Source: an uncultured Flammeovirgaceae bacterium (GTDB lineage: Bacteria > Bacteroidota > Bacteroidia > Cytophagales > Cyclobacteriaceae). From it: a stretch of DNA of 35,476 bases. The notes beneath the pieces were generated by a model that had not been told where the DNA came from, searched no databases, and saw nothing but the letters and a program-made list of their open reading frames with translations. Location of the stretch: NCBI GenBank assembly GCA_937884755.1, contig CAKZYJ010000156.1, forward strand, positions 1 to 35,476. Direction: 5' to 3'. Position 1 is the stretch's first letter; every line of letters starts with the position of its first letter. The translations under genes were made by a program, and so were the position numbers. Shown in pieces: positions 5,402 through 35,054 of this stretch.

Positions 5402-5403
5402 AC

Positions 5404-5496
5404 CTTCTTTGCTAGGGTCTTTGATCTTACCATGGGCAGCGACCAGGACAAGTCTTTTATATCAAAATCAATTGAACAATTTTAAATTTTAACTTA
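5404..5496 (+). repeat. 93-base leader repeat, copy A (upstream of XusB-like gene)
   Basis: This segment aligns without gaps to 10508-10600: both start CTTCTTTGCTAG, share ATCAAAATCAATTGAACAAT and the following TTTTAA, and end directly at the ATG of an XusB-like lipoprotein gene. Together with those genes (1287 bases each) they form two 1380-base paralogous units. Upstream of the repeat the two copies are unrelated (TBDR remnant here, FecR gene at the other copy), so the 5' edge of the duplicated or conserved unit lies here. It may hold the gene's translation leader; I see no clear promoter in it. Confidence 0.75.
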
Positions 5497-9025: not shown

Positions 9026-9061
9026 GTTTCTATTACGCAATATGTCCATAAATAGAGCACT

Positions 9062-9837: not shown

Positions 9838-9853
9838 GTAGTTGTGCAACTAC
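9838..9853 (+). promoter_or_regulatory. Inverted repeat upstream of the short FecR gene
   Basis: GTAGTTG (9838-9844) and CAACTAC (9847-9853) form a perfect 7-base inverted repeat with a 2-base centre, 34 bases before the FecR-type ATG. An A-tract, AAAAAAATTT, lies upstream near 9804-9814. The other FecR gene (18137) also has an A-tract of the same kind and a 7-1-7 inverted repeat upstream. It could be a regulator site or an RNA hairpin controlling the anti-sigma gene; no more can be said. Confidence 0.35.
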
Positions 9854-9887
9854 TATATAAAGAAGCACAAAACCAAACTACCCGCTC

Positions 9888-10502: not shown

Positions 10503-10507
10503 AGCCA

Positions 10508-10600
10508 CTTCTTTGCTAGAGTCTTTGATTCTACTATGGACAGAAACCAGGACGAGCTTTTTACATCAAAATCAATTGAACAATTTTAAAATTTCACACA
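10508..10600 (+). repeat. 93-base leader repeat, copy B (upstream of interrupted XusB-like gene)
   Basis: This is the partner of 5404-5496: gapless alignment over all 93 bases up to the ATG, with a few scattered substitutions and strongest identity at the start and over ATCAAAATCAATTGAACAAT. Here it begins 6 bases after the FecR stop codon. Confidence 0.75.
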
Positions 10601-17526: not shown

Positions 17527-18033
17527 ATGACCGCTCAGCGTTTTGAAGAAATCTACCGGCATTATTCTAAAAAGTTATTTCGAATCTGTATGGTCTTTGT
17601 GAAGGACGAAGAAATCGCAACAGAGATGGTACAGGATATTTTTTGTTCTATCTGGGAACGAAAAGACACTATTTCTTTAGAAACCAATTGGGAAAAGTAT
17701 CTCTACCGATGCGCTAAGCTCCAGTACTATAATCACTCGAGAAACCAAACAACCCAAGAGCATCATCTCGAGCAATATTCTCTTAAGCAGCCCAGGGAAA
17801 CTAACACTACCGAAGAAACGGTAGAGGTTCGGCAGATGGCCGAGCAAGTTGACCAACTGGTAGCAGATATGCCTGAAAAAAGAAGGCAGGTATACCGCTT
17901 AAGCCGACAAAAAGGACTCACTAACAAAGAAATCGCTCAACATCTGTTTATCTCAGAAAAAACGGTAAAGAACCATCTCACCAAATCGCTGGCCTACCTG
18001 CGTACGGGCTTGAAAAATTCGGGCTATGGCTAA
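17527..18033 (+). CDS. ECF-type RNA polymerase sigma factor
   Basis: 168 residues. Region 2 includes FEEIYRHYSKKLFRICMVFV, MVQDIFCSIWERKD; region 4 includes KRRQVYRLSRQKGLTNKEIA and SEKTVKNHLTKSLAYL. It is followed by a full-length FecR (18137) and an STN-containing receptor (19097), the complete FecI-FecR-FecA-type signalling set: ligand binding to the receptor is passed via its STN domain to FecR, which frees the sigma factor for transcription of the uptake genes. The iron-type promoter is at 17380-17429. Confidence 0.93.
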   Translation: MTAQRFEEIYRHYSKKLFRICMVFVKDEEIATEMVQDIFCSIWERKDTISLETNWEKYLYRCAKLQYYNHSRNQTTQEHHLEQYSLKQPRETNTTEETVEVRQMAEQVDQLVADMPEKRRQVYRLSRQKGLTNKEIAQHLFISEKTVKNHLTKSLAYLRTGLKNSGYG

Positions 18034-18136: not shown

Positions 18137-19090
18137 ATGAAAGATATTACCCCCGAATTACTGGAAAAATACTACAACAATACTTGCAGTGAGGAAGAAC
18201 GCAAGGCTGTAGAGGCTTGGCTAAACGCCCCGGAAGGGCCAAGCCCTCGCGAAGAAAAACTGCTAGCCAGTAGCTGGCAGAACATCCAATCCAATATTCA
18301 GCAGCGGGATCAGCCGGCGGCAATTACGCGACGATTATCTCCTCGGTTTTGGCTGGGTATGGCTGCTTCGGTAGTGCTGGTACTGGGCATTGGTTTCTAT
18401 ACCTACGATAGTTTCTTCCGTAACTCGTCGGAAAGCGCAATTAGCCAAAGTCAGTACCACAATTTTACTACCCAACGCGGAGAAAAAAGAACCCTCACGC
18501 TGGCCGATGGCTCTACTATTCGCATGAATTACGAAACGGAAATCCGAGCCCCGAAGCAGTTTGAGGGTAATGAACGAATTGTCTACTTGACTGGCCACGC
18601 CCACTTTGATGTTGTGCGTAACCCTGATAAGCCCTTTATCATCTATACCGAGGATACCAAAACCCAGGTACTAGGGACCTCTTTTGACGTACGAACCTTT
18701 CCCAATTCCGAGAAAACCGAAGTGGTAGTATCCAGCGGAAAAGTTGAGTTTTCGTCGAAGGAAGATACCCAAAACAAGGTGCAGCTTACGGTTAACGACC
18801 GGGCGCTGCTGCTACCGGGCGAAAAGATTAGCGTCAGTGAAGTATTCGCCGCTGACTACACTGCCTGGAAAGATAACCGCTTGGTGTTTGAAGATGCTCC
18901 TTTGGAAGAAATTGTATTAGTGCTAGAGCGCTGGTACGATATTGATATTACGGTTCGGAATACCAAACTACTCGGTAACCGCTATACTTTTGCGTACGAC
19001 AATCCTCCCTTACCGACCCTACTGGAACGAATAAGTTTCGTAGCCAAGTTTGAATACACTATTGAGGGCAAGCAAGTAACGATCTACTAA
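18137..19090 (+). CDS. FecR-type anti-sigma factor / receptor signal transducer
   Basis: 317 residues. N-terminal sigma-binding domain with LLEKYYNNTCSEEERKAVEA (residues 8-27); one TM helix at about 71-88 (WLGMAASVVLVLGIGFY); periplasmic FecR domain with TQRGEKRTLTLADGSTIRMN and HAHFDVVRNPDKPFIIYT-type strands, then VLGTSFDVRTF; C-terminal DUF4974-type domain from about 250 (LVFEDAPLEEIVLVLERWYD), which is the part expected to contact the receptor STN domain. It lies between sigma (103-base gap) and TBDR (6-base gap). Full family length, no defects seen. Confidence 0.93.
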   Translation: MKDITPELLEKYYNNTCSEEERKAVEAWLNAPEGPSPREEKLLASSWQNIQSNIQQRDQPAAITRRLSPRFWLGMAASVVLVLGIGFYTYDSFFRNSSESAISQSQYHNFTTQRGEKRTLTLADGSTIRMNYETEIRAPKQFEGNERIVYLTGHAHFDVVRNPDKPFIIYTEDTKTQVLGTSFDVRTFPNSEKTEVVVSSGKVEFSSKEDTQNKVQLTVNDRALLLPGEKISVSEVFAADYTAWKDNRLVFEDAPLEEIVLVLERWYDIDITVRNTKLLGNRYTFAYDNPPLPTLLERISFVAKFEYTIEGKQVTIY

Positions 19091-19096: not shown

Positions 19097-21781
19097 ATGA
19101 GTATAATCAAACTTCATGGCGTAGGAAGGCTACTTGGGCTGATGCTGACTTGCCTGATTTACAGTCAAACTGCTTTAGGTCAAAGCAGTATTCTAGATCA
19201 GAAAATCAACCTGAGCGTCAAGGATGCATCCGTTACTGAAGTGATGCGGCTGCTTCGGAAGGAGACTGGTTACTTTTTTAATTACGCCAACTCCGATCTA
19301 CCGACCGAACGGAGAATCACCAAAGTATATAAAAACGAAAGCTTGCGAAAGCTGTTAAGGGACGTTTGGGGCAGCGAAGCTATTAACCTGAAGGTAGTAG
19401 GAAAGACCATTGATATTCGAAGTGAGAATCGGAAGCCCCGAGGAAAACCTGGAAATATTGAGGGCCAGGTGCTCGATGCTAGGGGGAAACCACTCGCCTA
19501 CGCTACGGTAGGTCTGAAGGGAACCAACCTAGGGGTGCTGACTGATACAGCAGGTTACTTCAGCTGGCTCACAGTAGCGGCCGGTACCCAATCCCTAGTG
19601 ATCTCGTCAATGGGATACGCTCCGCAGGAAGTGGAAGTCAATGTACCCGATGGTCAGACTATTCATGTGGAGATTAGCCTTACTGAAGCGACCAATGAAC
19701 TAGATGAAGTCATCGTCGAGGGAAAAACTCTGAATCAGCAAAAAATGGAAGAACCCATTAAAGTGGAAGTAGTCAATACAAAAAAGCTACAAACAAAATC
19801 CATCAGCTTACCTCAGGTCATTAATCAAACTCCTGGCGTTAAAGTTCGCCAAGGAGGTGGAGTTGGTAGCTCAACTATTATTAATGTAAATGGTTTACAG
19901 GGGAATGCCATTCGTTTTTTTAGAGATGGAATTCCTATGGATTATCTCGGAAGAGCCTTTGATTTAAACTTAATTTCAACCGATCAATTAGATAATATTG
20001 AAATTTACAAAGGTGTTTTACCAGCGGAATTGGGTGCTGATGCCTTAGGGGGAGCATTTAACCTAACCAGTCGCCAAAATTTCAATAACAATTTAGATTT
20101 AGCCTACAGCACAGGTTCATTTAATACCCATCAAATAAATGTTAATGGATATCTCAATATTCCTCAAAGTAAGCTATTCGTTTCTCTCACCTCATACTAC
20201 TTATATTCAGATAACAATTACAAAGTAATTGTTCCAATTGCTGATGAAGAAACAGCCAATTTGGTTGATACTGAAGTGGAGCGGTTTCACGATGGAATTG
20301 AAACTTTTTTTGCCGAGACAAAAATTGGCCTTCGAGACTTTAAATATGGAGACTTATTAGTGTTTGGGTACTCTCATTTTGACTTGGAAAAAGAGCGTCA
20401 AAATGGTTTGCAATTGGATCCAAACTCCGCTTTAGGTGAGGTGATGGATTATGAAACTTCAGATGTTTTATCATTAAGGTATAAATTAAACAAAGGGAAG
20501 TTTTCAACGGATGTCTTTGGGGCATATAGTAACCAAAACACCCTTTTTGTTGATGATCCGGAATCACGATGGAATTGGTTAGGAGAACGAATTCCATTGA
20601 GAAACCAAGGTGGGGAAAGCAGTCCTTTTTCAAGGTATTACAGAGATTTAAACTTTAAAACTTGGACTGCCCGAGTTAATGTTGGTTATAAATTATCTGA
20701 AAACCATAAACTAGTGTTCAACCATAATTTCATTTCTAAAGATAGAATTGGTTCTGACACGCTTGAAATCATCTTTGGGACCGATGTAGATCCTTTAACC
20801 TTTCCAACAAATTATACCCGACACATTTCAGGATTAGGTTTAACCTCATCATTATGGAAAAATAAAATTCAAAATGTACTTACAGTTAAGCAATTTCATT
20901 TGAATACATCTACTACACAAGCAGGTTTGGTCGCTGATGATGATCCTATTGTAGTAAATAAAACAAGCCACGGAATTGGTAACTCAACAAAATTTAGTTT
21001 AAATAAAAACCGATTTTTAAGATTCTCTTACGAATACGCAACCCGAATACCAGAGGCTATTGAATATTTGGGAGATGCCTTATTTATTCTTGCAAATCCC
21101 AACTTAACTCCTGAAACAAGCCATAATATCAATACTGGCATATTTTCTAATATTGGTAAAAAGAAAAAACATTGGCTGGATTTAAATGTTTTTTATCGTT
21201 TTGTTCAAAATAATATTATTCTATTTCAATCTGGATTTGCAAACGGTATTTTCCGAAATGCCAATGACGCTCGAGTTTTAGGTAGTGAGCTTTCATTGAG
21301 AGGACAAATAATTCCGGGTTTAAGATATAATTTCTCAGTAACCTATCAGGATTTGAGAAGAGTAAATTCGTCTAATGTTAATTTTTCAAGCTCCAGACAG
21401 CCCAATATCCCTTATTTTTTCTCCAATACCGGTTTAAGATATACCCATCCAAAAGTATTTATAAAGGGAAATTGGGACGGTTACTTGAATTACGGATTTG
21501 TTGAGCAATTTCTACTTGGATCTGTTCCAAGAGAATTAGAACCAAGGCTATTTGAAAGAGAGTATCAATTCGATAGTAAAACCATCATTGATGCACAGCA
21601 CACCTTGGATATTGGAATGACTTACAAATACTCAGACATGCCACTTTGGGTAAGCCTTGAAGTGAACAACCTACTGGATATACCAGTTTTTGATGGTTTT
21701 CGTGTTCAACTGCCCGGAAGAAATTTTCGAATCAAACTTAAATACACAATAGAAGGAAAATCAAATGAGAAAATCAATTAA
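19097..21781 (+). CDS. STN-containing TonB-dependent receptor (XusA-like), mosaic gene
   Basis: 894 residues: signal peptide (about 1-28), STN signalling domain (about 33-105, KINLSVKDASVTEVMRLLRK), carboxypeptidase-D-like domain (about 116-198), plug (about 215-330, PQVINQTPGVKVRQGGG ... NGLQGNAIRFFRDGIPMDYL ... LGADALGGAFNL) and a full beta-barrel ending RNFRIKLKYTIEGKSNEKIN. Role: import of a ferric siderophore and signalling to the FecR at 18137. The first about 640 bases have the G+C content of FecR and its neighbours (53% in 19441-19500); from about 19.75-19.83 kb on the gene becomes A+T-rich (about 32% G+C in 20101-20160, about 20% in 21181-21240). The switch lies at the start of the plug. 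The end overlaps the next gene by 17 bases. Confidence 0.95.
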   Translation: MSIIKLHGVGRLLGLMLTCLIYSQTALGQSSILDQKINLSVKDASVTEVMRLLRKETGYFFNYANSDLPTERRITKVYKNESLRKLLRDVWGSEAINLKVVGKTIDIRSENRKPRGKPGNIEGQVLDARGKPLAYATVGLKGTNLGVLTDTAGYFSWLTVAAGTQSLVISSMGYAPQEVEVNVPDGQTIHVEISLTEATNELDEVIVEGKTLNQQKMEEPIKVEVVNTKKLQTKSISLPQVINQTPGVKVRQGGGVGSSTIINVNGLQGNAIRFFRDGIPMDYLGRAFDLNLISTDQLDNIEIYKGVLPAELGADALGGAFNLTSRQNFNNNLDLAYSTGSFNTHQINVNGYLNIPQSKLFVSLTSYYLYSDNNYKVIVPIADEETANLVDTEVERFHDGIETFFAETKIGLRDFKYGDLLVFGYSHFDLEKERQNGLQLDPNSALGEVMDYETSDVLSLRYKLNKGKFSTDVFGAYSNQNTLFVDDPESRWNWLGERIPLRNQGGESSPFSRYYRDLNFKTWTARVNVGYKLSENHKLVFNHNFISKDRIGSDTLEIIFGTDVDPLTFPTNYTRHISGLGLTSSLWKNKIQNVLTVKQFHLNTSTTQAGLVADDDPIVVNKTSHGIGNSTKFSLNKNRFLRFSYEYATRIPEAIEYLGDALFILANPNLTPETSHNINTGIFSNIGKKKKHWLDLNVFYRFVQNNIILFQSGFANGIFRNANDARVLGSELSLRGQIIPGLRYNFSVTYQDLRRVNSSNVNFSSSRQPNIPYFFSNTGLRYTHPKVFIKGNWDGYLNYGFVEQFLLGSVPRELEPRLFEREYQFDSKTIIDAQHTLDIGMTYKYSDMPLWVSLEVNNLLDIPVFDGFRVQLPGRNFRIKLKYTIEGKSNEKIN

Positions 21782-23033
21782 TCAATTAGTAGTACAATGC
21801 ATTTTAAAACCAATTCTGCGAAATGTGTTAACGGTCGCTATATTATCAAGTACGGTCTTTTTTACCAGCTGTAATGATGATAATGACCCTCAACCGTCAT
21901 CATCTGAAGATAACTTAGGTTATGCTTTGTTTACGACTGGAGGAGGAGCATTACTAACTTTCAGCGACACTCTATTTTCAGGTATAATAAATCCTGCAAA
22001 TTTTGAAAATCCTATTCAATTCGCTGACCAAAATAGAGTTATAGGTGTAGGGTTTGAAGGTGGATTTTATACAGGAATCAATCAAACCTTGGATATTGGT
22101 ATTCAAAAATTCACAGAAAATGATCTTGGTGAATTTGAAGATGCGGGTTTTATATCAATAGGAGAAGGAGGTGGGCTTTTTGATTTCGCAAGTCAATCAA
22201 AAGGTTATTACATTGATGAATTACGTAATGATCAAGCCTTACAAACGTTTGATCCAACTACTATGCAAAGAACAGGAGAAGTTGATTTTTCCGCATCAGT
22301 TGCACAATTTGCCAATAATGACAGTGTGGTAAATATTACATTGAATAGTTTCGTACAAGCCTCTGGGGACTATGTTTTCACTCAAATTAATTTTTTGAAG
22401 GCAGATGGTCAAAACGTCTTTGATTCTACTTTTGTTGTGGCAATCAATTCTACAACCGATATGGTTGAAAATGTAATGATTTACCCACAGGCTATAGGTG
22501 GTATGGATGAAGGTTTAAGTAAGGAGGTTATTACTGAAGACTCTAATGGCGATCTTTATTTTATAGGTAATACAGGTCTGTTAACGTCTGAATTAATTTT
22601 ACGTGTTAAAGCTGGTACTACAGCTTTTGATATGTCTTTTGGAACTAACGGTATAGCAAACTTAGAGGGCATTGCACCAAACTTTGCTGGAACTGGTGCA
22701 ATTCTTACAGTTGGAGGTGGACAGATGAAAGATGGTAAAATCTATGTTAGAATGAATGAAGAAGATGCTGTATTTACAAATATTTTCACACTTGAAGGCT
22801 TTGCTTGGGAAATAGATTTAAATACATTAACAGGAACTAAAATTCAAGGTATTCCCGGAAGTTCATTTGCAGGAAACACCCTTAATGGAACTACAATAAT
22901 TGAAGGAAAAGCATATTTCCCTGTGGCTAACAATGAATTTCAAGGTTATTACACATACGATTTAACTACGGGAGAAGTAGTTAAAGCAATTGAGCTTGAA
23001 AGTGGTAAAATAGGAGCCATTGCAAAACTATAG
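21765..23033 (+). CDS. XusB-like surface lipoprotein (DUF4374-type)
   Basis: 422 residues, start ATG inside the end of the receptor gene (17-base overlap, translational coupling). Long N-terminus with lipobox FFTS-C (Cys36) followed by NDDND, a surface-export signal. The mature protein has repeated blades: QTFDPTTMQRTGEVDFS, VFDSTFVVAINSTTDMVEN, ILRVKAGTTAFDMSFG, FAWEIDLNTLTGTKIQGIPG and FQGYYTYDLTTGEVV, all with counterparts in the 30131 and 31409 proteins and the fragment at 6911. In the Xus system such a protein binds the ferric siderophore at the cell surface and delivers it to the TBDR. The A+T-rich composition matches the barrel part of the receptor, so the two probably moved together. 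Confidence 0.88.
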   Translation: MRKSINQLVVQCILKPILRNVLTVAILSSTVFFTSCNDDNDPQPSSSEDNLGYALFTTGGGALLTFSDTLFSGIINPANFENPIQFADQNRVIGVGFEGGFYTGINQTLDIGIQKFTENDLGEFEDAGFISIGEGGGLFDFASQSKGYYIDELRNDQALQTFDPTTMQRTGEVDFSASVAQFANNDSVVNITLNSFVQASGDYVFTQINFLKADGQNVFDSTFVVAINSTTDMVENVMIYPQAIGGMDEGLSKEVITEDSNGDLYFIGNTGLLTSELILRVKAGTTAFDMSFGTNGIANLEGIAPNFAGTGAILTVGGGQMKDGKIYVRMNEEDAVFTNIFTLEGFAWEIDLNTLTGTKIQGIPGSSFAGNTLNGTTIIEGKAYFPVANNEFQGYYTYDLTTGEVVKAIELESGKIGAIAKL

Positions 23034-23070
23034 GATATAGAATAGTCATTTCAGTCCAAGTCCCTTGAAC

Positions 23071-23355
23071 ATGATTCTAACAGCTATTTCGTTAACTCTT
23101 TTATCGATCACCTGCTTCTATGTAGCGGCAGATCGGACCGAATTAAATCCAAGAGTCATTCCTGATTTTCTATCCAAGTATCCTCAGTTGTTGAGGATGC
23201 TTGGATGGACTTTTACCGTCGCAAGCCTACTTCTATTTGCCGTTGATTTGAGTTTAGCAAAGGGAGTTTTCACGGTCTTGGTACTGTGGCCCACGCTTGC
23301 GTCTGTCATTATTCTAATAGTTCCTTTTTTTTCTAAAAAGATAGCAAAAAACTAA
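23071..23355 (+). CDS. DUF3325-like small inner-membrane protein
   Basis: 94 residues from ATG 23071 (in-frame TTG at 23065 is less likely). Three hydrophobic segments: about 1-20, 43-62, 66-86. The layout TM1-[A]-D-R-x-x-x x(n) LR-x-x-G-W-TM2-TM3 resembles DUF3325, a small family found with PepSY and DUF3649 proteins in siderophore operons of proteobacteria. Its counterpart at 32640 shares the VADR motif after TM1 and the order of neighbours. It ends 6 bases before the DUF3649-like gene. Probably an accessory subunit of the PepSY protein; role inferred from context. Confidence 0.72.
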   Translation: MILTAISLTLLSITCFYVAADRTELNPRVIPDFLSKYPQLLRMLGWTFTVASLLLFAVDLSLAKGVFTVLVLWPTLASVIILIVPFFSKKIAKN

Positions 23356-23361
23356 CACACC

Positions 23362-23649
23362 ATGCCAGCAAATAAAAAGTATCTATTGAAAACCAAACTA
23401 GCCAGAACCAGTAAAGTGCTTGCTTCTGCAATTGGAGGTCTGGCCGCTACGATCGGCATATTATCTCTGTTAGGACTGCTGGGGTTTGATGAACTGATGG
23501 TGTTGACCATTTGGTTTGTTTTTCCTTCACTTTGGGCATTCTTCATTGCGGTGGTGTATTGGATCAAAAAACCAGGAAAAGCCTGGGCTGTCCTGGGTGC
23601 CGTGATCGTGGTATCAGGATTCGGTATTTTCTTGTTAAAAACACTTTGA
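23362..23649 (+). CDS. DUF3649-like small inner-membrane protein
   Basis: 95 residues, three hydrophobic segments (about 17-38, 46-66, 72-92). It starts MPANKKYL, closely matched by MPANTKYL at 32987, and keeps SKVLASAIGGLAA ... WAFFIAVVYWIKKPGKAWAV in the pattern of DUF3649, known from siderophore operons as a companion of PepSY and DUF3325 proteins. Stop at 23649 is 2 bases before the PepSY ATG (23652), so translation is coupled. A partner in iron handling at the inner membrane is likely but inferred. Confidence 0.72.
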   Translation: MPANKKYLLKTKLARTSKVLASAIGGLAATIGILSLLGLLGFDELMVLTIWFVFPSLWAFFIAVVYWIKKPGKAWAVLGAVIVVSGFGIFLLKTL

Positions 23650-23651
23650 TA

Positions 23652-25361
23652 ATGAAGGATATAAAAGAACATCAATCGGATAAAAGAGTCTACAATACAT
23701 TTTTCAATACGCATACCGTCGCTGGCATCATCATCAGTATTGGGGTATTCGTAATTTTCCTGGCAGGAGCTTTTGCGCTCTTTCAAAAGGAAATCAATAA
23801 CTGGGAAGTCAATAGTCAGCGGAGTAAGATTAATCTGAAGGATGTGGATTATGACCGGATACTCGCTGAGGTGGCTAAAAAAGGGTATCAAATGTATGCA
23901 CGTGATTTTCGTATTCAGCTAGGTGAAAATCGTGGTACTCATTTGGGTATTAGGGCAGGAATACCATCCAATATGATTTCCAAAGATTCATTGGGTCAGT
24001 TAACTACTTCCGACAGCCTGATATATGCGGAAGCCACTGCTCAAATTAATTATGTTGTTGACATCCAGTCTTATGAATTGATGAAACCTAATGAGTATGG
24101 CAAAGCAGGACAAATAGGTTGGATACTGACCCAACTACATTACTTCCGACAAATCCCGGTTGTAGGGATCTACCTGGCAGGAATACTTTCAATATTACTA
24201 CTATTCGCTTTAGTGTCTGGTGTGGTGATACACTGGAAGAAAATCGTCTCTAACTTCTTCACCTTCAGGTTAAAAAGTTCCATTAAAAACCTCTGGACAG
24301 ATGGGCATGTGGCGCTAGGTGTGCTTGGTCTTCCGTATCAGTTCATGTATGCCGCCACCGGGACGATATTTGGGTTGACTATTTTAGCCCTGCCAATCAT
24401 TTACCTGGTCTTCGGAGATGTGAATAAGGGAGCAGCCATTATCCTTCCTAGGAATGAAAACTATGAGCTGATTGGTGAAGCGGATCAAGTACATTCCATA
24501 AATACCCATGTTCAGGAGTTTTTGGGAAATCTACCTAGCCAGGATGTTAAAGGATTTCAAATGACGGTTAAGAGCTATGGAGATCAAAATGCCCATCTAA
24601 ATCTTACGTCAAATATTGATACGAAATTAAATTTTGCTGGATTTGCACAATCAGAATTTAGATTGGATGATGGCGAGCTCGTATACGAAAAGCGTTTGGA
24701 GGAAAGTTCTTTTCGTACCTCTTCATTGAGTTACTTCATAGGCTTGCACTTCGGAAACTTTGGTGGCTTATTTGTTCAAATTATCTACTTTATCATGGCC
24801 ATTCTGACTTGTTTTGTCATTATCAGTGGCGTAATGATTTGGCTGGTAGCTAGAGACAAAAAAGCCTATGCCACCAAAGCAAGATTCAATCGTAATGTGG
24901 GAGCCATCTATTTGGGAGCTTGCTTGGGACTTTATCCCGCGATTGCGTTACTATTCGTCATAGCCAAGGTATTACCTCTAGAAATGGAGATCCGCTATCA
25001 ACTTATTAATGCGGTTTTCTTTGGTTTTTGGTTGGCCTTTACCATCTATGCCTTTTTCATTAAAAGCAGCTATAAGATTAATAAACATGCCTTGCTAATT
25101 GCGGGAGGTTTAGGGCTACTCATCCCGGTACTCAACGGTTTACAAAGTGGGCTATGGCTTTGGAAGTCTTGGGACGGGGGATACGAAGATTCTTTTATCG
25201 TGGATGTATTCTGGTTGGTATCCGGAGCAGTTACGCTATACATCGGCCTTAGACTAAAACCCCAGACCGAACCCGTAAAAGCCAATCGGAAGAAACGGAC
25301 GTATACCAACGTTGCAGCCAAACCATTGCATGCTATTAATCCTACTCCCCGCACCCAATAG
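23652..25361 (+). CDS. XusC-like PepSY transmembrane protein
   Basis: 569 residues from ATG 23652, which is 2 bases after the previous stop; the frame stays open upstream but that part overlaps the DUF3649-like gene and is not likely to be used. TM1 region NTFFNTHTVAGIIISIG, then LTQLHYFRQIPVVGIYLAG, NLWTDGHVALGVLGLP and FIGLHFGNFGGLFVQIIYF show four membrane-edge His motifs; three more hydrophobic segments follow at about 415-530, so it is longer than the 411-432-residue PepSY proteins. The tail reads AKPLHAINPTPRTQ. The paralogue at 33375 has the same organisation. Family role: inner-membrane step of ferric siderophore use, probably iron release or reduction. Composition goes back to host-like values towards the 3' end. 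Confidence 0.9.
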   Translation: MKDIKEHQSDKRVYNTFFNTHTVAGIIISIGVFVIFLAGAFALFQKEINNWEVNSQRSKINLKDVDYDRILAEVAKKGYQMYARDFRIQLGENRGTHLGIRAGIPSNMISKDSLGQLTTSDSLIYAEATAQINYVVDIQSYELMKPNEYGKAGQIGWILTQLHYFRQIPVVGIYLAGILSILLLFALVSGVVIHWKKIVSNFFTFRLKSSIKNLWTDGHVALGVLGLPYQFMYAATGTIFGLTILALPIIYLVFGDVNKGAAIILPRNENYELIGEADQVHSINTHVQEFLGNLPSQDVKGFQMTVKSYGDQNAHLNLTSNIDTKLNFAGFAQSEFRLDDGELVYEKRLEESSFRTSSLSYFIGLHFGNFGGLFVQIIYFIMAILTCFVIISGVMIWLVARDKKAYATKARFNRNVGAIYLGACLGLYPAIALLFVIAKVLPLEMEIRYQLINAVFFGFWLAFTIYAFFIKSSYKINKHALLIAGGLGLLIPVLNGLQSGLWLWKSWDGGYEDSFIVDVFWLVSGAVTLYIGLRLKPQTEPVKANRKKRTYTNVAAKPLHAINPTPRTQ

Positions 25362-27715: not shown

Positions 27716-30115
27716 ATGCCCTCAACCTACCTACGCTATACGATCAGCGCACTGCTGATGGTATGCCTGTGCCCCTATTTGTACGCCCAATCGGCTACCT
27801 TGGAAGGATCTGTTTCGGACGCCAGTGGCGAACTAATGCCCGGTATCACTGTCATATTAGATAACGACCAAGGGGTCGCTACCGATGTGTCTGGTAATTT
27901 TATCCTGCGTAATATCTCTCCGGGAAAGCACACGCTTGCTATTTCGGGAGTAGGATATGCGGCTAAAACTCAGGCTGTCAGCCTGAAAGAGGGACAAACT
28001 CTTCGATTGAGCATTCAACTGGAAGAAGGTTTGTTGGAAATGGACGAAGTTATCGTTCAAGGAAAGTCCGAAGCTCAGGTTAAAATGGAGCAGCCTATTA
28101 AGGTAGAAGCGATGGATATCAGTCGTATCCAGGAACGCTCTACCCCGGTTCCTCAGCTAATCAACCAGATGCCAGGGGTCAACATCCGCCAATCGGCGGG
28201 GGTAGGCAGTACGGTGACCGTTAACCTTAATGGTTTGCAAGGCAATGCCATTCGCTACTTCCGCGATGGTATTCCGCTAGACTACCTGGGCAAAGCCTTT
28301 GACATCAGTATCGTGCCTATCGGCCAGCTAGGCGGGGTGGAAGTGTATAAGGGTATTTTGCCCGCTAGCTTAGGAGCTGATGCCTTGGGTGGGGCTATCA
28401 ACCTGATCAGTAACAATCTCTACGAGAGCCAACTAGACGTATCCTACGGTTTTGGCTCATTTAATACCCACCAAGCCAATGTCAACGGATTTTTCCAAAT
28501 ACCCGGTACCAAGCTTTATACTAAACTGTCTTCCTATTACGTCTCGGCCGAAAACAACTACGAAATGGAAGTTCAGGTGGTGGATGAAGAATCGCAAACC
28601 CTGAAACCCGCCAACGTGACCCGCTTTCACGACGGGGTAGAAAGTAAATTTGTGGAAGTAGCGGCGGGGGTTACTGATATTCGCTACGCCGACTTATTTG
28701 AGATTGGTTACGCCTACTTCGATAATGAAAAGGAAGAGCAGCACGGCTTCAACGTAAGCAAGCCCTTCGGCGAAGTGATGAATTACGAAAACTTTGATGC
28801 CTTTCATACCCGCTATAAAAAGGCCCTTGGTAAACTGGAGATAGACCTATTCGGGGCTTATAGTATGAAGAATACGCTCTTTGCCGACACCAGTGGTAAC
28901 CGCTACGATTGGAACGGTGATGTAGTAGCCGTGGTAAGCGGTACCGAGGGCGAAGCCAATACCAAATCATTCCGTAGCCTTGATTTTGAGAACTTTGTCG
29001 GGCGGTTCAACCTGACTTACCAACTGGGTAAAGCAGCCATTACCCTAAATCATAATATCACTACCGACCGCCGGGTAGGCAACGACCCTTTCGGTCAACG
29101 GATAGGAATTGATGGAGAAACGATTGACCCTTTTAGTATTCCGGCTAGTTACGACAAGAATATTTCGGGTTTACAGGTGACTTTTCCTCTATGGAAAGAG
29201 CGAATTACCCAGGTAGTAACGGCCAAGCGTTACGCCATTACTACCAGCTCGCTAAGTCAGTGGGGCATTGGTGATCTTACCCCAACTTTTTCGGATGAGA
29301 GCTACGGAGTTGGTACTTCGTTGAAGTTTTCCTTCAGCCCCGACCGATTTATCCGGCTATCCTACGAAAATGCAACCCGCATTCCCGAATCTCGGGAATA
29401 CTTCGGAGACGGTGCATTCCTGATTGGAAACCCCCTCCTAAATCCCGAACAAAGTCACAATATAAACTTAGGCCTCTACACGAATCTAGACCAAAATAAG
29501 GATTGGTGGTTGGACGTAAACGCCTTTTACCGCCACGTGCAGGACCAAATTATCCTACAACCACTGTGGTTGATCTTTTCTCAGTACCAGAACAAGGATG
29601 AAGCTAAGATCCAGGGGGTGGAGGCTAGCGTCAGGACAACCCTGTTTGACAAACTAAAAATAAGCGCCAACATTACCTATCAAGATGCCAGAAGGTTTAA
29701 TATCGAGACCCGTAGTGAACAAGTGATGGAGGGTGCCCGTCTCCCCTTCCGTCCGTTCTTCTACACCAATCTGAATTTTAATTACGACCTACATGGGTTG
29801 TTCGGTAGCAGCGATCGGCTTTCACTGTACAGCAATTACAGTTTTGTTGAAAAGTACATCTTCATTCAAATCCCTCAGTCACAGGAGCCGGGTATCTTTG
29901 AAAACGTAGAAGGCTCGCAACTAAGTAATCTGGAAGACTTCCTGATTCCGACTCAGCATATGGTGAATGCCGGGGCTTCTTATAAATTTAATGACCTCCC
30001 CTTGTGGCTGAACCTGGAAGTGAACAACGCCCTGAACCTAGAACTGTACGACAACTTCCGGATACCTAAGCAGCCTATTAACTACAATATAAAAATCAGA
30101 TACCAACTTAAGTAA
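27716..30115 (+). CDS. TonB-dependent receptor (XusA-like) without STN domain
   Basis: 799 residues: signal peptide (about 1-26, ending LYAQS), carboxypeptidase-D-like domain (about 28-110, LEGSVSDASGELMPGITVIL), plug (about 125-240, PQLINQMPGVNIRQSAGVG ... NGLQGNAIRYFRDGIPLDYL ... LGADALGGAINL) and a 22-strand-type barrel ending INYNIKIRYQLK. It is paralogous to the 19097 receptor from the carboxypeptidase-like domain on (same plug signatures, same FHDGVE and DLFGAYSMKNTLFAD-type loops) but lacks the STN domain, in line with the lack of a sigma/FecR pair in this module. Composition is host-like throughout. Two lipoprotein genes follow after 15 bases. Function: import of a ferric siderophore or xenosiderophore. 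Confidence 0.95.
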   Translation: MPSTYLRYTISALLMVCLCPYLYAQSATLEGSVSDASGELMPGITVILDNDQGVATDVSGNFILRNISPGKHTLAISGVGYAAKTQAVSLKEGQTLRLSIQLEEGLLEMDEVIVQGKSEAQVKMEQPIKVEAMDISRIQERSTPVPQLINQMPGVNIRQSAGVGSTVTVNLNGLQGNAIRYFRDGIPLDYLGKAFDISIVPIGQLGGVEVYKGILPASLGADALGGAINLISNNLYESQLDVSYGFGSFNTHQANVNGFFQIPGTKLYTKLSSYYVSAENNYEMEVQVVDEESQTLKPANVTRFHDGVESKFVEVAAGVTDIRYADLFEIGYAYFDNEKEEQHGFNVSKPFGEVMNYENFDAFHTRYKKALGKLEIDLFGAYSMKNTLFADTSGNRYDWNGDVVAVVSGTEGEANTKSFRSLDFENFVGRFNLTYQLGKAAITLNHNITTDRRVGNDPFGQRIGIDGETIDPFSIPASYDKNISGLQVTFPLWKERITQVVTAKRYAITTSSLSQWGIGDLTPTFSDESYGVGTSLKFSFSPDRFIRLSYENATRIPESREYFGDGAFLIGNPLLNPEQSHNINLGLYTNLDQNKDWWLDVNAFYRHVQDQIILQPLWLIFSQYQNKDEAKIQGVEASVRTTLFDKLKISANITYQDARRFNIETRSEQVMEGARLPFRPFFYTNLNFNYDLHGLFGSSDRLSLYSNYSFVEKYIFIQIPQSQEPGIFENVEGSQLSNLEDFLIPTQHMVNAGASYKFNDLPLWLNLEVNNALNLELYDNFRIPKQPINYNIKIRYQLK

Positions 30116-30130
30116 GAATAAAAACTACTC

Positions 30131-31351
30131 ATGAAAAATCAATTTAGCCTTTACGTATTAGCATTGCTGATGTTATCAGTCAGCTTCTTGGTTTCCTGCT
30201 CAGAAGATTCTCCCGAACCGACAGCAGTAGTAGACCCTACTGATGATGATAAGTTCGTGTTATCCATGATTACCGACGTTAGCAACGGTAGCGGGATTTT
30301 GATCCCGTACGATTCCATGCCCCACGGCACCGTAAATCCGGCCGATGCCTCAGGACTTTCTTTTGCATCGGTAAGGTCGGCCGGATACACCTACAAGGAC
30401 GCTATCTTCGAGAATAATAATCCCGCGGGTGATCCGGGTATTCAAAAATTAACGTTGTCTCCCAGTGGTCAACTGGTGGAGTCTGGATTTATTGCCAACG
30501 CCGTAATCAGTACAGTCAAAGACGATGATTTAGGCTATTACTGGAATCCCGATCTGAACCCCAAGGCGATCCAGACTTTTAATCCTACCACTATGGAGCG
30601 CACTGGGGAAATTGATCTCAGCGCCCAGCTCGATCCCTATATCACCGAGGAGGCTCAGGCGATTAGTTTTAACTGGTTTATGGAAATAGCTGACGATAAG
30701 CTCTATACTATGGTTTCTTTTGAAGATGTTAACGCCACACCAGTTTATGACTCATCCTTCGTGGCAGTGATCAATACTAATACCAACCAGTTTGAGGCCA
30801 TGGCCATCCACCCTGAGTTCTTTATGTTCGGTTATTTTGGCCAGCCCAACATTGAGTATACTGGAGTTGGTAGTGACGGTTACTTATATCTGGCTGCTTG
30901 GGGAGGTAGAAATTTTCAAATTAAGGGCACTATCCTGAGAATCAGGGCGGGCGAAACGTCCTTCGATCCAAACTTTGCAATCAAGTTAGATGATTTTGTA
31001 GGTGGGGCAGCAATGATGTACGGTGGCTCCTGTTACCATAATGGCAAATTATACTGTCGAATGAAAGATACTGCTGTCTTACCTGATTTTAGCAATTTTA
31101 ATGAAGTGCCTGACATATACCCTTACGAAATTGACTTAGCAACCGGTACGGCCAAGAAGATTGGTGGCACACCGGGTAGCAATCACAATTCTATTCACGG
31201 CCCGTTCCTGTACAACGAAAAAATATACTTCCCCGCTAGTAACCCCGACTACCAGGGCTACTACGAGTACGACCCCACAACCGGCGACTTAGCGGAAGAG
31301 ATATTACTTATTACTTCCGGGGTTCCCTCCCAAATTTACATTTTAGACTAA
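30131..31351 (+). CDS. XusB-like surface lipoprotein (DUF4374-type), tandem copy 1
   Basis: 406 residues. Lipobox FLVS-C (Cys23) followed by SEDSPEP, a surface-export type N-terminus. Blade motifs QTFNPTTMERTGEIDLSAQL, VYDSSFVAVINTNTNQFEAM, FGYFGQPNIEY, ILRIRAGETSFDPNFAI, YPYEIDLATGTAKKIGGTPG and YQGYYEYDPTTGDL are shared with the next gene, 21765 and the fragment at 6911. It starts 15 bases after the receptor stop. Expected to capture the ferric siderophore at the surface and pass it to the 27716 receptor. Cys residues in GGSCYHNGKLYCRM are specific to this copy. Confidence 0.88.
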   Translation: MKNQFSLYVLALLMLSVSFLVSCSEDSPEPTAVVDPTDDDKFVLSMITDVSNGSGILIPYDSMPHGTVNPADASGLSFASVRSAGYTYKDAIFENNNPAGDPGIQKLTLSPSGQLVESGFIANAVISTVKDDDLGYYWNPDLNPKAIQTFNPTTMERTGEIDLSAQLDPYITEEAQAISFNWFMEIADDKLYTMVSFEDVNATPVYDSSFVAVINTNTNQFEAMAIHPEFFMFGYFGQPNIEYTGVGSDGYLYLAAWGGRNFQIKGTILRIRAGETSFDPNFAIKLDDFVGGAAMMYGGSCYHNGKLYCRMKDTAVLPDFSNFNEVPDIYPYEIDLATGTAKKIGGTPGSNHNSIHGPFLYNEKIYFPASNPDYQGYYEYDPTTGDLAEEILLITSGVPSQIYILD

Positions 31352-31408
31352 CCCTCACTGTGATGGTAATTTCGTCTGATTACTACCCTCACCCTAATCT
31401 CACTAATC

Positions 31409-32617
31409 ATGAAAGATTTAATCCACTATACTCTCTTTTCTCTTCTGATTTTATCGGTAAGCCTCTTGGCATCCTGCTCCGAGAATGAACCAGCGGCCGA
31501 AGCTCCTATAGATCCGACAGAAGACGATAAATTTGTACTCTCGATCAATATGGGTCAGGAAAGTGCGATGTTGGTAGCCTTCGACAGCTTTCCTTCCGGC
31601 GATATTGATCCGTCGACGTTGAATGGTATTGCGATGAATAATGCTAGTTTCGGGAGCGAGTCGCACGGAGATGCTATCTACTACGGCGTTAATCCGGCTG
31701 GTGATCCTGGTATTCAGAAGTACGAAATTAATAGCGCGGGTCAGCAAGCTTCTGGTGGTTTTTTTGCTGGTGCAGAAATGTTCGGATTAGTAAATGAAAA
31801 CAAAGGTTACTATTTTAATCCCAACCTGAGTGATAAAGGTTTACAGATTTTTGATCCTACCAGTATGGTTAAGACAGGAGAAATTGACCTTACTGAACAG
31901 ATCAACACCTATGCTGCCGACACGGCTGTTAAAAACGTGACGATGGCTGGATTCATGAAAATGGCCAACGACAAGTTCTACGCCCAAGTACGATTTGATA
32001 ATGCCAATGGATTCCCTATTTACGATTCTACTTTTGTGCTAGTTATTGATCCTACAACCGACAGTTTTGTTGATTGGGCCGTATATCCGGAATATTTTCT
32101 TTTTGGCTATTTCGGGGTAAAAAGTGCTCATTTAGTGGAGTATGCCGATGACGGATACTTGTATCTTTCCGCATTTATGTCTGATTTCGTGGAGGGACCT
32201 AACTCCACAACTGTAAGGATTAAGGGCGGTGAAACTACTTTTGACCCCAACTTCAAAATAGACTACAACCAACTAGTGGAAGGAAATGCTTTTATCCTGG
32301 GGGGAGGGGTGTACCATAACGGCAAGCTCTACGCTAAAGTAAAACCAGTGGCACCCGACTGGAGCAACTCTGGTGATGTGAATATGTACCCTTACGAAGT
32401 TGACGTGGCTAGCGGTCAGATTACCAAGATTGATAACATACCGGTAGGTACTTGGGGCTCGGTTCAAGGCCCTTTTACCTACAATGGAATGGTATACATT
32501 ATATCCAGCACCGCTGATGGTGAGCATTACTATTCCTACGATCAGGAAACCAAGGCGACTGAGAAAGTATTTTCCCTCACCGCAGGGGTTCCGACCGATC
32601 TCTATATTATAGACTGA
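31409..32617 (+). CDS. XusB-like surface lipoprotein (DUF4374-type), tandem copy 2
   Basis: 402 residues. Lipobox LLAS-C (Cys23) followed by SENEPAAE. It aligns along its length with the preceding gene: PTEDDKFVLSI against PTDDDKFVLSM, NPAGDPGIQKYE against NPAGDPGIQKLT, DPTSMVKTGEIDLTEQI, FGYFGVKSAHLVEY, IKGGETTFDPNFKI, HNGKLYAKVK. The two diverged clearly, so the duplication is not recent. It may widen the range of ligands for one receptor or form a pair at the surface. 57 bases separate the two; a DUF3325-like gene follows after 22 bases. Confidence 0.88.
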   Translation: MKDLIHYTLFSLLILSVSLLASCSENEPAAEAPIDPTEDDKFVLSINMGQESAMLVAFDSFPSGDIDPSTLNGIAMNNASFGSESHGDAIYYGVNPAGDPGIQKYEINSAGQQASGGFFAGAEMFGLVNENKGYYFNPNLSDKGLQIFDPTSMVKTGEIDLTEQINTYAADTAVKNVTMAGFMKMANDKFYAQVRFDNANGFPIYDSTFVLVIDPTTDSFVDWAVYPEYFLFGYFGVKSAHLVEYADDGYLYLSAFMSDFVEGPNSTTVRIKGGETTFDPNFKIDYNQLVEGNAFILGGGVYHNGKLYAKVKPVAPDWSNSGDVNMYPYEVDVASGQITKIDNIPVGTWGSVQGPFTYNGMVYIISSTADGEHYYSYDQETKATEKVFSLTAGVPTDLYIID

Positions 32618-32639
32618 TAGTATTAGTAAATCCAAGAAA

Positions 32640-32981
32640 ATGTACACCCTAAGCATCGTTACTTCTTTTTTATCGGTACTTGCCCTCTACGCTGTTGCCG
32701 ATCGGGTGGAATTTGACAAGCCTGACTGGATGCAGTGGTTGGATGCTCACGCTACCGTGGCGCGCCTTTCGGCAGCCATCTTGTTTGGGGTGAGCACTTT
32801 CTTACTGACCGTTACTATGGGTTTAGCCACGGGTATCTTTGCCAGCCTTACTCTCTGGATGCTGCTAGCCGGCCTGATGGTGCTGTTTGCTCCCTTTGAG
32901 CGCATAAGCCAATTCCATTTAGGTTTGATTCTGCTAGCTAGCATCGGTATTGAAGTATTATTACTCACCCTACAGTCCTAA
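32640..32981 (+). CDS. DUF3325-like small inner-membrane protein
   Basis: 113 residues, three to four hydrophobic segments (about 3-20, 42-62, 64-84, 94-111). It shares YAVADRVEFD after TM1 with YVAADRTELN of the 23071 protein, and the same place between XusB-like and DUF3649-like genes; it has an additional C-terminal hydrophobic segment. Accessory role with the PepSY protein is inferred from the conserved gene order. Confidence 0.72.
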   Translation: MYTLSIVTSFLSVLALYAVADRVEFDKPDWMQWLDAHATVARLSAAILFGVSTFLLTVTMGLATGIFASLTLWMLLAGLMVLFAPFERISQFHLGLILLASIGIEVLLLTLQS

Positions 32982-32986
32982 TCGCT

Positions 32987-33265
32987 ATGCCCGCTAACAC
33001 CAAGTACCTTACTCAATCACCCTGGATCAAATTCGGTAGACTCTCCGCCGCCATCCTGGGGAGCCTAATTGCTGCCGTTGCCTTTCATCTCGCTCTGGCC
33101 GCTTGGCTCGACCCAGCTATTGTATTTGGAACCTCTATTTTCACCATCTTCATTCTCTGGACGGGGTTGATGCTGGTTACCTACTGGCTGCGTAAGGTTT
33201 GGCAAGTGTGGAGCTTGCTACTCTTACTAATTGGAGTAAGTAGCTTAATGATTTACCTAAACTGA
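32987..33265 (+). CDS. DUF3649-like small inner-membrane protein
   Basis: 92 residues, three hydrophobic segments. MPANTKYLTQSPWIKFGRLS aligns with MPANKKYLLKTKLARTSKVL of the 23362 protein, and SAAILGSLIAA with ASAIGGLAAT; both end in W-x-x-W/AW-x-[LV]-L...-hydrophobic. It begins 5 bases after the DUF3325-like gene. The next gene, the PepSY protein, is here 109 bases away rather than coupled as in module 4. Confidence 0.72.
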   Translation: MPANTKYLTQSPWIKFGRLSAAILGSLIAAVAFHLALAAWLDPAIVFGTSIFTIFILWTGLMLVTYWLRKVWQVWSLLLLLIGVSSLMIYLN

Positions 33266-33374
33266 TGGAGGATAGAGCAGGTGGCCGCCGTTGCCCAGTT
33301 GGGAGCTTAGTGTGCATACTCCCCGCCCCTTGCTCTCTTTCATTTAACAATCGAACCATCGAACAATTGAATCC

Positions 33375-35054
33375 ATGAACAATCGCGATTACAACGTCTT
33401 TTTCAATACCCACACCGTAAGTGGTATTGTCATTAGCATCGGGCTCTACGTCATTTTCTTGGCGGGAGGCTTTGCACTGTTTCTCGAGAATATCAACCAC
33501 TGGGAAGCCAATGAACCGGCTGAGTCGGCGGTTACCGTTATTGATTACGACCGGGTGCTGGCGCAGGTAGAGGCCGAAGGCTACGCTATGCACGGCCGGG
33601 ATATGTTCATTAACAACCACCACGGTCATATTTCGGTATTTTCTCAACCGTTGTCCGATTCCACTTTACAGGGAAGCCAATTGAGTTTACTGCCCGACTC
33701 AGTCGCCCGAGGGAATATTAATCTGGAATTAGATGGTGACACCTATGCCGTAGCCCCATCGGAAGAAGAAGCTCAGGAAGCTGCTCTGGGTGATTTTCTG
33801 TACGATCTTCACTTCTTCCGCCAAATCCCGGTGGTGGGCATTTATCTTGCGGGACTGGTTTCCGTGTTCTTTCTGTTTGCTATTATCACCGGGGTGATCG
33901 TTCACTGGAACAAAATATTTTCCTTCTTTTTTACCTTTCGCCTCAAGGCATCGCTCAAAAATTTATGGACCGATGCCCATACTGCACTGGGAGTGATCGG
34001 ATTACCCTTTCAGTTTATGTACGCCGTTACCGGGGCGATCTTTGGCTTAGTGATTCTGATCTTTCTGCCCTACGCTCAGATCCTTTACGGAGGCGATCAG
34101 CAAGCGATGTTTGAAGAGGTTTATCCGGCTTTCTTTTCCCAACAGTTTGAAACGAAGGGCTACACCGAAGCGCAGGTATCCATCAATAAGTTGGTTGAAC
34201 AATCAGTGAGCAAGATACCTACGGAGCACGTGGAGTTTATCAGCGTTGGTATCAAAAACTATCACGATCAGAACGCCCACGTTGGGGTGACGATTGGCAC
34301 TGACTTGACCAGCCATTTTTTTAATACTACCGAGATTGCCTATCGCCTATCCGACGGGCAAATGGTACACGAAGTAGCGGTAGCCGATAACCCACCCTAC
34401 GTGGTGGGGGTAGTTGATTTTGTGCATAGAATTCACTTTGGCAATTACGGGGGTTACTTTATCCGAGTGCTATACTTTTTAATGGCATTGGTTACCTGCT
34501 TTGTCATCATTTCGGGAGTAATGGTATGGCTAAAGGCTCGCGATAAGAAAAAGTATGAAGCGAAACAGCAATATAATACTAACGTAGGGGCCATCTACCT
34601 GGGGGCTTGCCTGGGGCTGTTTCCCGCCATTGCCCTGATGTTTATCTTAACCAAGACCTTTCCCGCCGAAATGGCTCACCGCTTCGGTTGGATCAGTTGG
34701 TTGTTTCTGGCCTTTTGGGTGGGTTACACTGTCTACGCTTACTTCGTCAAAAACTACTTTACCATTAACCGCAACGCGCTGTTGTTAGCGGGAGTGATGG
34801 GCTTACTCATCCCGGTTTTCAATGGTTTGCATTCCGGGTTATGGCTTTGGCAGTCTCTTCCAATGGGCTACCCCGACTCATTTTTCGTCGACCTGGCCTG
34901 GCTGCTAACTGGCGCTCTCACGACCTTCGTGGCTTTACGCCTTACACCACAAGCCGAACCAGCGAAGGCTACCCGGAAAAAACAGAAATTGACTACTATT
35001 CGGGTAAGCAAGCCGATCCACGCTGTAAACCCCGGTCCACGGCCTATTCAATAA
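33375..35054 (+). CDS. XusC-like PepSY transmembrane protein
   Basis: 559 residues, paralogue of the 23652 protein: VFFNTHTVSGIVISIGLYVI at TM1, FLYDLHFFRQIPVVGIYLAG, NLWTDAHTALGVIGLPFQFM, VHRIHFGNYGGYFIRVLYFL, NVGAIYLGACLGLFPAIALM, GLHSGLWLWQSLP. All four membrane-edge His motifs are kept. Periplasmic parts are more divergent, as expected if they meet different siderophores. C-terminal basic tail with SKPIHAVNPGPRPIQ. Host-like composition. A short set of degenerate 8-base repeats lies just before the start codon. The azurin-like gene follows after 45 bases. Confidence 0.9.
   Translation: MNNRDYNVFFNTHTVSGIVISIGLYVIFLAGGFALFLENINHWEANEPAESAVTVIDYDRVLAQVEAEGYAMHGRDMFINNHHGHISVFSQPLSDSTLQGSQLSLLPDSVARGNINLELDGDTYAVAPSEEEAQEAALGDFLYDLHFFRQIPVVGIYLAGLVSVFFLFAIITGVIVHWNKIFSFFFTFRLKASLKNLWTDAHTALGVIGLPFQFMYAVTGAIFGLVILIFLPYAQILYGGDQQAMFEEVYPAFFSQQFETKGYTEAQVSINKLVEQSVSKIPTEHVEFISVGIKNYHDQNAHVGVTIGTDLTSHFFNTTEIAYRLSDGQMVHEVAVADNPPYVVGVVDFVHRIHFGNYGGYFIRVLYFLMALVTCFVIISGVMVWLKARDKKKYEAKQQYNTNVGAIYLGACLGLFPAIALMFILTKTFPAEMAHRFGWISWLFLAFWVGYTVYAYFVKNYFTINRNALLLAGVMGLLIPVFNGLHSGLWLWQSLPMGYPDSFFVDLAWLLTGALTTFVALRLTPQAEPAKATRKKQKLTTIRVSKPIHAVNPGPRPIQ

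Follow-up and report, generated by a model that had tools for sequence, protein, structure and literature searches.

Composition and barrel ancestry of a XusA-type receptor gene suggest a resident signalling end that carries an exchanged ligand-recognition unit

Can a cell-surface signalling receptor exchange the part that recognizes its ligand and still report to the same switch? This question is raised by a gene (19097-21781) in contig CAKZYJ010000156.1 of assembly GCA_937884755.1, from an uncultured Flammeovirgaceae bacterium. The contig, analysed over its full 35,476 nucleotides and termed the window, is contig C156 of an 8.35-Mb source genome in 528 contigs, with contamination of 3.74%. 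The gene encodes a XusA-like TonB-dependent receptor and lies between genes for an extracytoplasmic function (ECF) sigma factor and a FecR-type anti-sigma factor on one side and a XusB-type lipoprotein on the other (Table 1). We propose, with a probability of roughly 0.7, that the signalling cassette at this locus is native and that the ligand-recognition unit it carries, consisting of the barrel and the lipoprotein, was exchanged. For comparison we used receptor loci of the same genome (C66, C205, C271, C337 and C356), a genome of the same genus (G099) and a Flammeovirgaceae metagenome bin (L104).

The G+C content is 0.533 at positions 19441-19500, 0.317 at 20101-20160, 0.200 at 21181-21240 and 0.433 at 23761-23820, and all four values quoted in a first-pass annotation of the window were thereby reproduced. 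A two-segment model of the G+C content at third codon positions (GC3) places the switch at codon 208 (nucleotide 19721), where GC3 goes from 0.495 to 0.269. The 2-unit support interval is 19619-19850. The switch thus falls just after the carboxypeptidase-like domain (CTD), as had been claimed, in the linker that leads to the plug. Its log-likelihood gain of 17.9 ranks first among 198 open reading frames (ORFs) of at least 400 amino acids from the same genome (next, 13.2), and none of 277 such ORFs of at least 300 amino acids has a lower GC3 than the XusB-type gene (0.201). This sample comprises 39 stretches and the window (687,858 bases, after an overlapping stretch, L203, was dropped), and it is not random because contigs were picked for carrying earlier hits.

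The step is also exceptional within the XusA family. The window receptor has the largest GC3 step among 133 family receptors, and its difference between pre-plug and post-plug GC3 (+0.216) likewise ranks first (mean -0.033, standard deviation 0.059). These are the usable rows of 135, two lacking a start, and one Flavivirga gene is counted twice, whole and truncated. No comparable step is present in the STN-bearing receptors C66, L184 and L245, where the largest gain is 4.7, at codon 382 of C66. A step shared by orthologues across the genus would argue against a mosaic, as the first-pass annotation pointed out; the G099 receptor, the only one of its kind found in a genus-mate, has none (GC3 0.41/0.41/0.40), and a whole-receptor search at E 1e-60 gave no match into the STN part in the two other genomes of the genus.

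Taken gene by gene, sigma and FecR have a GC3 of 0.47-0.51, the whole receptor 0.32, the XusB-type gene 0.20, and the genes for the small membrane proteins and the PepSY protein 0.40-0.43. When the region between the sigma and PepSY genes, both included, is modelled in three segments (gain 66), the borders fall at 19721 (19649-19850) and 23104 (23007-23170), with GC3 of 0.482, 0.229 and 0.401 in the three segments. Codon usage was scored as a log-odds (LOD) value for the host (426 ORFs; mean 0.44, standard deviation 0.20) against Flavivirga (36 ORFs). Sigma (0.39), FecR (0.66), STN (0.61) and CTD (0.56) are host-like, whereas plug (-0.08), barrel (-0.12) and XusB-type gene (-0.27) are not (z -2.6 to -3.5). 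The odd unit is therefore plug, barrel and lipoprotein. Because the three genes at 23.07-25.36 kb are within the host range (small membrane proteins 1 and 2, 0.13 and 0.31; PepSY, 0.27; z -1.52, -0.65 and -0.84), the A+T-rich segment spans about 19.72-23.10 kb and not, as first described, a stretch to about 25.1 kb. Thus, the proposal that A+T-rich partners were attached, close to the plug start, to a host-like signalling end holds for the receptor and lipoprotein and is not clearly borne out for the membrane proteins and PepSY, and the checks by GC3 and codon usage that were called for confirm both the step and the division into host-like and odd parts.

Receptor and lipoprotein resemble XusA and XusB, respectively. 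The receptor matches Bacteroides XusA (9GBC_A) in sequence (E 2.9e-73) and in fold (rank 1, E 4.3e-46). The lipoprotein by itself has no Pfam match; a profile of its 12-member family matches Bacteroides fragilis XusB (9HQE) at 1.5e-20, and its structural model, with a mean predicted local distance difference test (pLDDT) score of 77.4, has 9HQE as its best fold match (rank 1, TMq 0.66). With E values up to 1 allowed, Pfam DUF4374 matches 8 of the 12 proteins in this family, and the window protein is not among them. A lipobox-like FTSC followed by acidic residues was read by eye in the lipoprotein.

In an AlphaFold2 (AF2) model of the receptor (mean pLDDT 80.5), residues 36-109 make up an STN-type part and residues 119-194 the CTD, and the change point coincides with a low-confidence linker at residues 200-208. 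The CTD is matched by Pfam CarbopepD_reg_2, and the order of strands and helices in the STN-type part fits STN. Pfam STN itself scores 16.4 bits (E 0.008), below its cutoff of 28.4; the best match of a four-row N-terminal profile, a weak one, is the PilQ secretin N-domain (E 0.0038). The receptor start also resembles N-terminal parts of SusC-type and XusA-type receptors. The sigma and FecR genes upstream were identified with Pfam and NCBIfam. Composition and architecture agree with a mosaic receptor.

The ancestry of the barrel is distinct from that of STN-bearing XusA proteins. When contigs were scanned with three barrels of the source genome and the best 80 of 112 relatives were kept, L104, L105, L106 and L107 stood at 43-49% identity and the next relative at 32%. 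These four, a second Flavivirga copy and two paralogues of the source genome (C356 and a second operon of the window at 27.7 kb) form with the window barrel a clade of eight. In a careful tree of 36 receptors hand-picked from the 135, the window barrel stands in starred sets of six and eight rows (98/98 and 100/98), and the STN-bearing XusA proteins of C66, G099 and Flavivirga lie in another barrel clade. Joining the window barrel with these three is rejected (approximately unbiased test, p 1.7e-73), as is placing it inside their wider clade (p 5.7e-5). At clade level, the ancestry of the barrel is clear. A common placement of both receptor parts, named in the first-pass annotation as a refutation, did not emerge as far as the trees could show it.

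None of the seven other clade members found has an STN match, and 129-137 residues precede their barrels, compared with 230 in the window receptor (the L106 copy, cut at the locus edge, was read from L238). In the six scanned with Pfam (L105 is near-identical to L107), the carboxypeptidase-like domain comes first and starts at residue 21-30. Judged by sequence matches, the clade is patchily distributed: at E 1e-110 one genome, the source genome, has the barrel out of 395 in the class (with scoring of three candidates for each) and out of 96 in the family (with scoring of at most 12 for each). The next best family genome, G068 (2.8e-110), has a barrel of 33% identity that lies outside the clade.

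The signalling end has other relatives. Among the loci compared, receptor residues 1-215 are closest to G099 (137 bits) and C66 (123 bits; next, 95). By BLAST, the sigma factors of window and G099 share 65% identity (230 bits, with the next gene at 130), and FecR is 53% identical to that of G099 and 50% to that of C66 (next best, 160 bits). The cassette of G099 is intact and comprises sigma, FecR, STN-XusA, XusB and then a 449-residue frame in the PepSY place, named by position and start only. Global identities between window and G099 are 66% (sigma), 53% (FecR), 40% (STN), 36% (CTD), 41% (plug) and 30% (barrel). From FecR to barrel they are 55, 32, 38, 45 and 33% between window and C66 and 49, 36, 47, 49 and 34% between G099 and C66. 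G099 and C66 thus resemble each other more in the CTD (47%) than they resemble the window (36 and 38%). With L104, the window shares 38% in the CTD, 74% in the plug and 46% in the barrel, the plug limits being slightly different.

These observations suggest how the locus may work. It would combine siderophore-type uptake of the XusA/XusB/PepSY kind with sensing under ECF sigma/FecR cell-surface signalling. Sigma, FecR, the STN-type domain and the CTD would be the host lineage's own signalling cassette. Plug, barrel and lipoprotein (~19.72-23.10 kb) would together be an A+T-rich unit of another XusA clade, probably contributed by a foreign donor and acquired through recombination, presumably homologous, in the linker before the plug. 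The XusB-type propeller would capture a ferric ligand and hand it on to the barrel. Loading would shift the plug, the old STN domain would signal to the resident FecR, and FecR would then free the sigma factor, such that a new ligand drives an old switch. The host-like PepSY protein, a probable ferric-siderophore reductase of the XusC kind, would reduce the iron.

Two known systems bear on this mechanism. FoxA is described, in the accessible part of one study (PMC11637429), as contacting the C-terminal domain of its FecR-type regulator FoxR with its signalling domain. In the PupBA chimera (Koster 1994), as recounted in the available portion of PMC9249621, specificity follows the barrel and the signalling route follows the STN domain; the same portion states that the reverse chimera, PupAB, lost signalling. 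By analogy with the FoxA-FoxR contact and the behaviour of PupBA, the mosaic may have kept its switch and changed its ligand.

Several observations weigh against an exchanged unit behind a resident signalling end. The STN assignment rests on the structural model and weak profile matches. In seven of the nine own-genome loci where a lipoprotein gene adjoins the receptor (ten were compared), that gene has a lower GC3 than the start of the receptor, and one further plug of the source genome, that of C271, is also low (0.32); part of the GC3 trend may therefore be a gene-class effect. The low GC3 of lipoprotein genes and barrels in this genome looks like either such an effect or older exchanges that are already blurred. 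The window CTD is as near to L104 as to C66 (38% each). A CTD tree of 100 columns gives p 0.056 for placement with the barrel clade, and its best topology does not group the CTD with the STN-bearing rows either (p 0.305), so that of the separate ancestries first claimed for the two receptor parts, that of the barrel stands and the N-terminal tree only leans towards STN-bearing relatives. Across the family the CTD evolves fast: at a plug identity of 0.65-0.69, its median identity is 0.27-0.29. That identity rises sharply at the plug start (for L104, from ~30-38% to 75-85%) is consequently ordinary and proves nothing; this rise was dropped as evidence for a mosaic, and pairs family-wide have the same profile.

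The source of the unit is a further point of this kind. Flavivirga appears as the sister barrel (93/88), and this support drops to 54/65 and 43/54 under other models, which included Dayhoff recoding and LG+F+R4; the relation is therefore not used as proof of a donor. Grouping the window barrel with its own-genome paralogues, which are 42-45% identical to it, is not rejected (p 0.13). The search for close relatives of the A+T-rich part that had been recommended found no high-identity donor. A pattern scan for the XusB protein in an 84,980-species collection, which reaches close relatives only and missed relatives of 34-36% identity, gave no relative, and a plasmid collection gave no match. The Flavivirga operon is as A+T-rich as its flanking DNA.

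The alternative that survives best, although we consider it unlikely, is that a whole A+T-rich five-gene operon was imported and fused in frame behind the native STN-CTD part, its 3' genes merely seeming host-like through class effects or amelioration. This would also be a mosaic; its 3' border would lie near 25.36 kb, and the signalling end would have been added rather than the barrel exchanged. The order XusA, XusB, two membrane proteins, PepSY recurs in L104 and L106. GC3 in the L104 operon is 0.36, 0.34, 0.38, 0.45 and 0.43 from receptor to PepSY, below most flanking genes and likewise climbing towards PepSY, with no strong step within the receptor. Trees of XusB and PepSY, which were set aside, do not separate the window genes from the L104 and L106 operons. 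However, the 3' change point lies at 23104 with an interval that ends at 23170, the closest PepSY protein by identity among the loci compared is the own-genome one at 33375 (48%), and C271, a receptor of another clade in this genome, is likewise followed by a gene for a small membrane protein and by the beginning of a PepSY gene that runs into the contig end. As a separate observation, the L104 operon (L104 7614-13612) is an A+T-rich island, its flanking genes being mostly near 0.5 in GC3.

It is improbable that a paralogue from the genome or lineage itself, kin to C356 and the 27.7-kb operon, drifted towards A+T and gave the barrel in a fusion that involved no foreign DNA. The presence of both paralogues in the barrel clade, and their unrejected grouping with the window barrel, would fit this origin. 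However, both are host-like, with barrel GC3 of 0.43 and 0.54, and the sister under the main model is Flavivirga, although other models do not share that support.

Slightly less probable still is vertical descent of one gene that never recombined, its step reflecting a compositional tendency inherent in the barrels and surface lipoproteins of this genome. The low lipoprotein genes and the C271 plug agree with such a trend, as do the barrels of C66, C205 and C337, which are lower in GC3 than their plugs. Yet those three plugs stay high, whereas the window plug (0.26) and everything after it are low; the window step also ranks first in the family, the seven barrel relatives found lack STN, and the barrel has an ancestry unlike that of STN-bearing XusA. 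An assembly chimera, in which contigs of two organisms were joined at the conserved plug start, is very improbable even for a draft of this many contigs and this contamination, because it requires two joins, one of them in frame, in regions that are unique in the genome save for one 80-bp stretch at 74% identity, and because an ungapped DNA identity of 0.49-0.78 to seven related receptors over residues 200-232 leaves little for an assembler to join on.

If a resident signalling end did receive a new recognition unit here, the event may not be isolated. We tentatively suggest, giving it clearly less than even odds, that plug-barrel and XusB-type lipoprotein form an exchangeable cassette that was repeatedly joined by recombination, in the linker or at the plug start, to resident ends of the signalling or carboxypeptidase-like kind, and so re-addressed one sigma/FecR switch to new iron carriers. 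The hints are the N-domains of the C356 and 27.7-kb receptors, a step in C337 and a receptor relic that is cut at the plug start (Table 1). In the C356 receptor (L217 3149-5554) and the window receptor at 27716-30115, N-domains are 56-66% identical to those of genus-mates (L191, L192) and barrels only 33-34%. Tests of the CTD for a second exchange in these two receptors were not significant (p 0.066 and 0.199); the reverse test on their barrels was (p 1.7e-4). The C337 receptor has the third strongest GC3 step among the sampled ORFs of the genome. At L219 2264-6209, a XusA-type receptor of this genome drops strongly in GC3 close to the end of its plug (codon 221, from 0.59 to 0.41), and the lipoprotein gene that follows stands at 0.29.

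The relic is joined at about 5404 to a 103-nucleotide leader (83% like 10508-10610) and a 428-residue lipoprotein (5497-6783), behind which lies a XusB C-terminal remnant (6944-7660). Its plug-start DNA aligns best with the joint region of the window receptor (score 94, compared with 32-89 for five other receptors of the clade). A cassette of ECF sigma factor, short FecR-like protein (~200-220 residues) and lipoprotein (~420-440 residues) is repeated in the window (8474-11887) and in L197, L198, L209, L210 and L219. The window copy of the FecR-like protein has no Pfam FecR domain, and the window copies of the lipoprotein match no Pfam family. About ten lipoprotein copies and about ten short FecR-like copies occur in the sampled 8% of the genome. 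The lipoprotein frame at 10601-11887 is split into 10601-10984 and 11012-11887 and is apparently broken. L209 holds two 255-residue receptor fragments (1911-2678 and 6803-7570) with N-domain and plug only and equal query match, each followed by a 440-residue lipoprotein.

The PepSY gene, which stands in a row with the receptor and lipoprotein genes and ends at 25361, was named correctly in the first-pass annotation; the labels DUF3325 and DUF3649 given there to the small membrane proteins find no support in Pfam or NCBIfam. No tRNA gene, sought as a sign of a mobile element, is present within the window, and no repeat of at least 24 nucleotides was reported at either joint (19.7 or 23.1 kb). 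Promoter-like sites in the window do not exceed those in shuffled sequence (22 versus 23.6), and terminator-like sites number 13 versus 8.8 (standard deviation 2.8).

Table 1. Coordinates of the receptor locus and related features in the window
Feature	Position	Strand	Remarks
ECF sigma factor	17527..18033	+	Pfam Sigma70 r2/r4; NCBIfam TIGR02985 above cutoff; host-like composition
FecR-type anti-sigma factor	18137..19090	+	Pfam FecR and FecR_C; host-like composition
Receptor gene, whole	19097-21781	+	XusA-like TonB-dependent receptor with N-terminal STN-type domain
Receptor N-terminal part	19097..19720	+	Signal peptide, STN-type domain (residues 36-109), CTD (residues 119-194); host codon usage
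Composition switch	19619..19850, best 19721	+	GC3 change point; CTD-plug linker, low-confidence residues 200-208 in AF2 model
Receptor plug and barrel, XusA type	19721..21781	+	A+T-rich; matches PDB 9GBC_A
XusB-type surface lipoprotein, 422 residues	21765..23033	+	A+T-rich, GC3 0.20; profile and fold match 9HQE
3' end of A+T-rich stretch	23007..23170, best 23104	+	Three-segment GC3 model
Small membrane protein 1	23065..23355	+	No Pfam family; equivalent position in L104 and L106 operons
Small membrane protein 2	23362..23649	+	No Pfam family; counterpart at 32987-33265
PepSY-TM inner-membrane protein	23652..25361	+	PepSY_TM 6.4e-48 (longer frame 23511-25361 scanned); 48% to 33375-35054; host-range composition
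Second operon, barrel clade of window receptor, no STN	27716..35054	+	XusA 27716, XusB 30131, XusB 31409, small membrane proteins 32640 and 32987, PepSY 33375; host composition
Receptor relic: N-domain and plug start	4941..5404	+	Broken in conserved plug-start stretch

If the proposed exchange took place, evolution has used the modularity of STN domain and barrel that was demonstrated in the laboratory: the sensed ligand would have been exchanged and the signalling route kept. The locus also suggests that receptor and surface lipoprotein travel together as a unit of specificity. Since the joint and the exchanged unit are both delimited and a cassette from the same genus is at hand for comparison, it offers a basis for studying ligand change in surface signalling. 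Natural recombination occurs in pyoverdine receptors. A literature search, which covered titles and the starts of abstracts and mostly excluded subscription journals, gave no natural STN/barrel mosaic of this kind among the matches listed. The parts and the logic are known, and the natural joint with an apparently co-transferred lipoprotein seems to be a variant not found in that search.

The closest known system for the transport genes is Xus, which takes up xenosiderophores in Bacteroides and whose XusA and XusB structures (9GBC, 9HQE) are the best solved matches for the window receptor and lipoprotein. As here, a TonB-dependent receptor, a surface lipoprotein (in the window a beta-propeller by predicted fold) and a PepSY protein are encoded in one gene row. 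However, the window locus adds the STN-type domain, FecR and the ECF sigma factor, and it has two small membrane proteins between XusB and PepSY. XusB lengths peak at 410 and 465 residues, and B. fragilis XusB binds ferrichrome, as given in the available part of PMC13142918; at 422 residues, the window lipoprotein is near the short kind (~410 versus ~465 residues) by that account.

For the signalling genes, the likeness is to systems of the Fec, Pup and Fpv type, with which the locus shares the order sigma-FecR-receptor, sigma and FecR families recognized by Pfam and NCBIfam, and an STN-type fold in the model. Here, in contrast, the receptor is of the XusA type, carries a carboxypeptidase-like domain in addition and has a lipoprotein as its partner, and signalling is predicted. 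RagAB of Porphyromonas gingivalis is, like the window pair, a receptor and lipoprotein of Bacteroidota, and horizontal transfer has been reported for it. In that case the ragAB locus itself moves, and the accessible text of the report describes no joint at a signalling domain (PMC11817032). The nearest parallel for the joint is provided by the chimeras PupBA and PupAB, which combine an STN domain and a barrel from different receptors, as far as the available account of them goes. Those chimeras were made in the laboratory, whereas the joint in the window is natural, lies after both STN domain and CTD, and would have brought its partner lipoprotein along.

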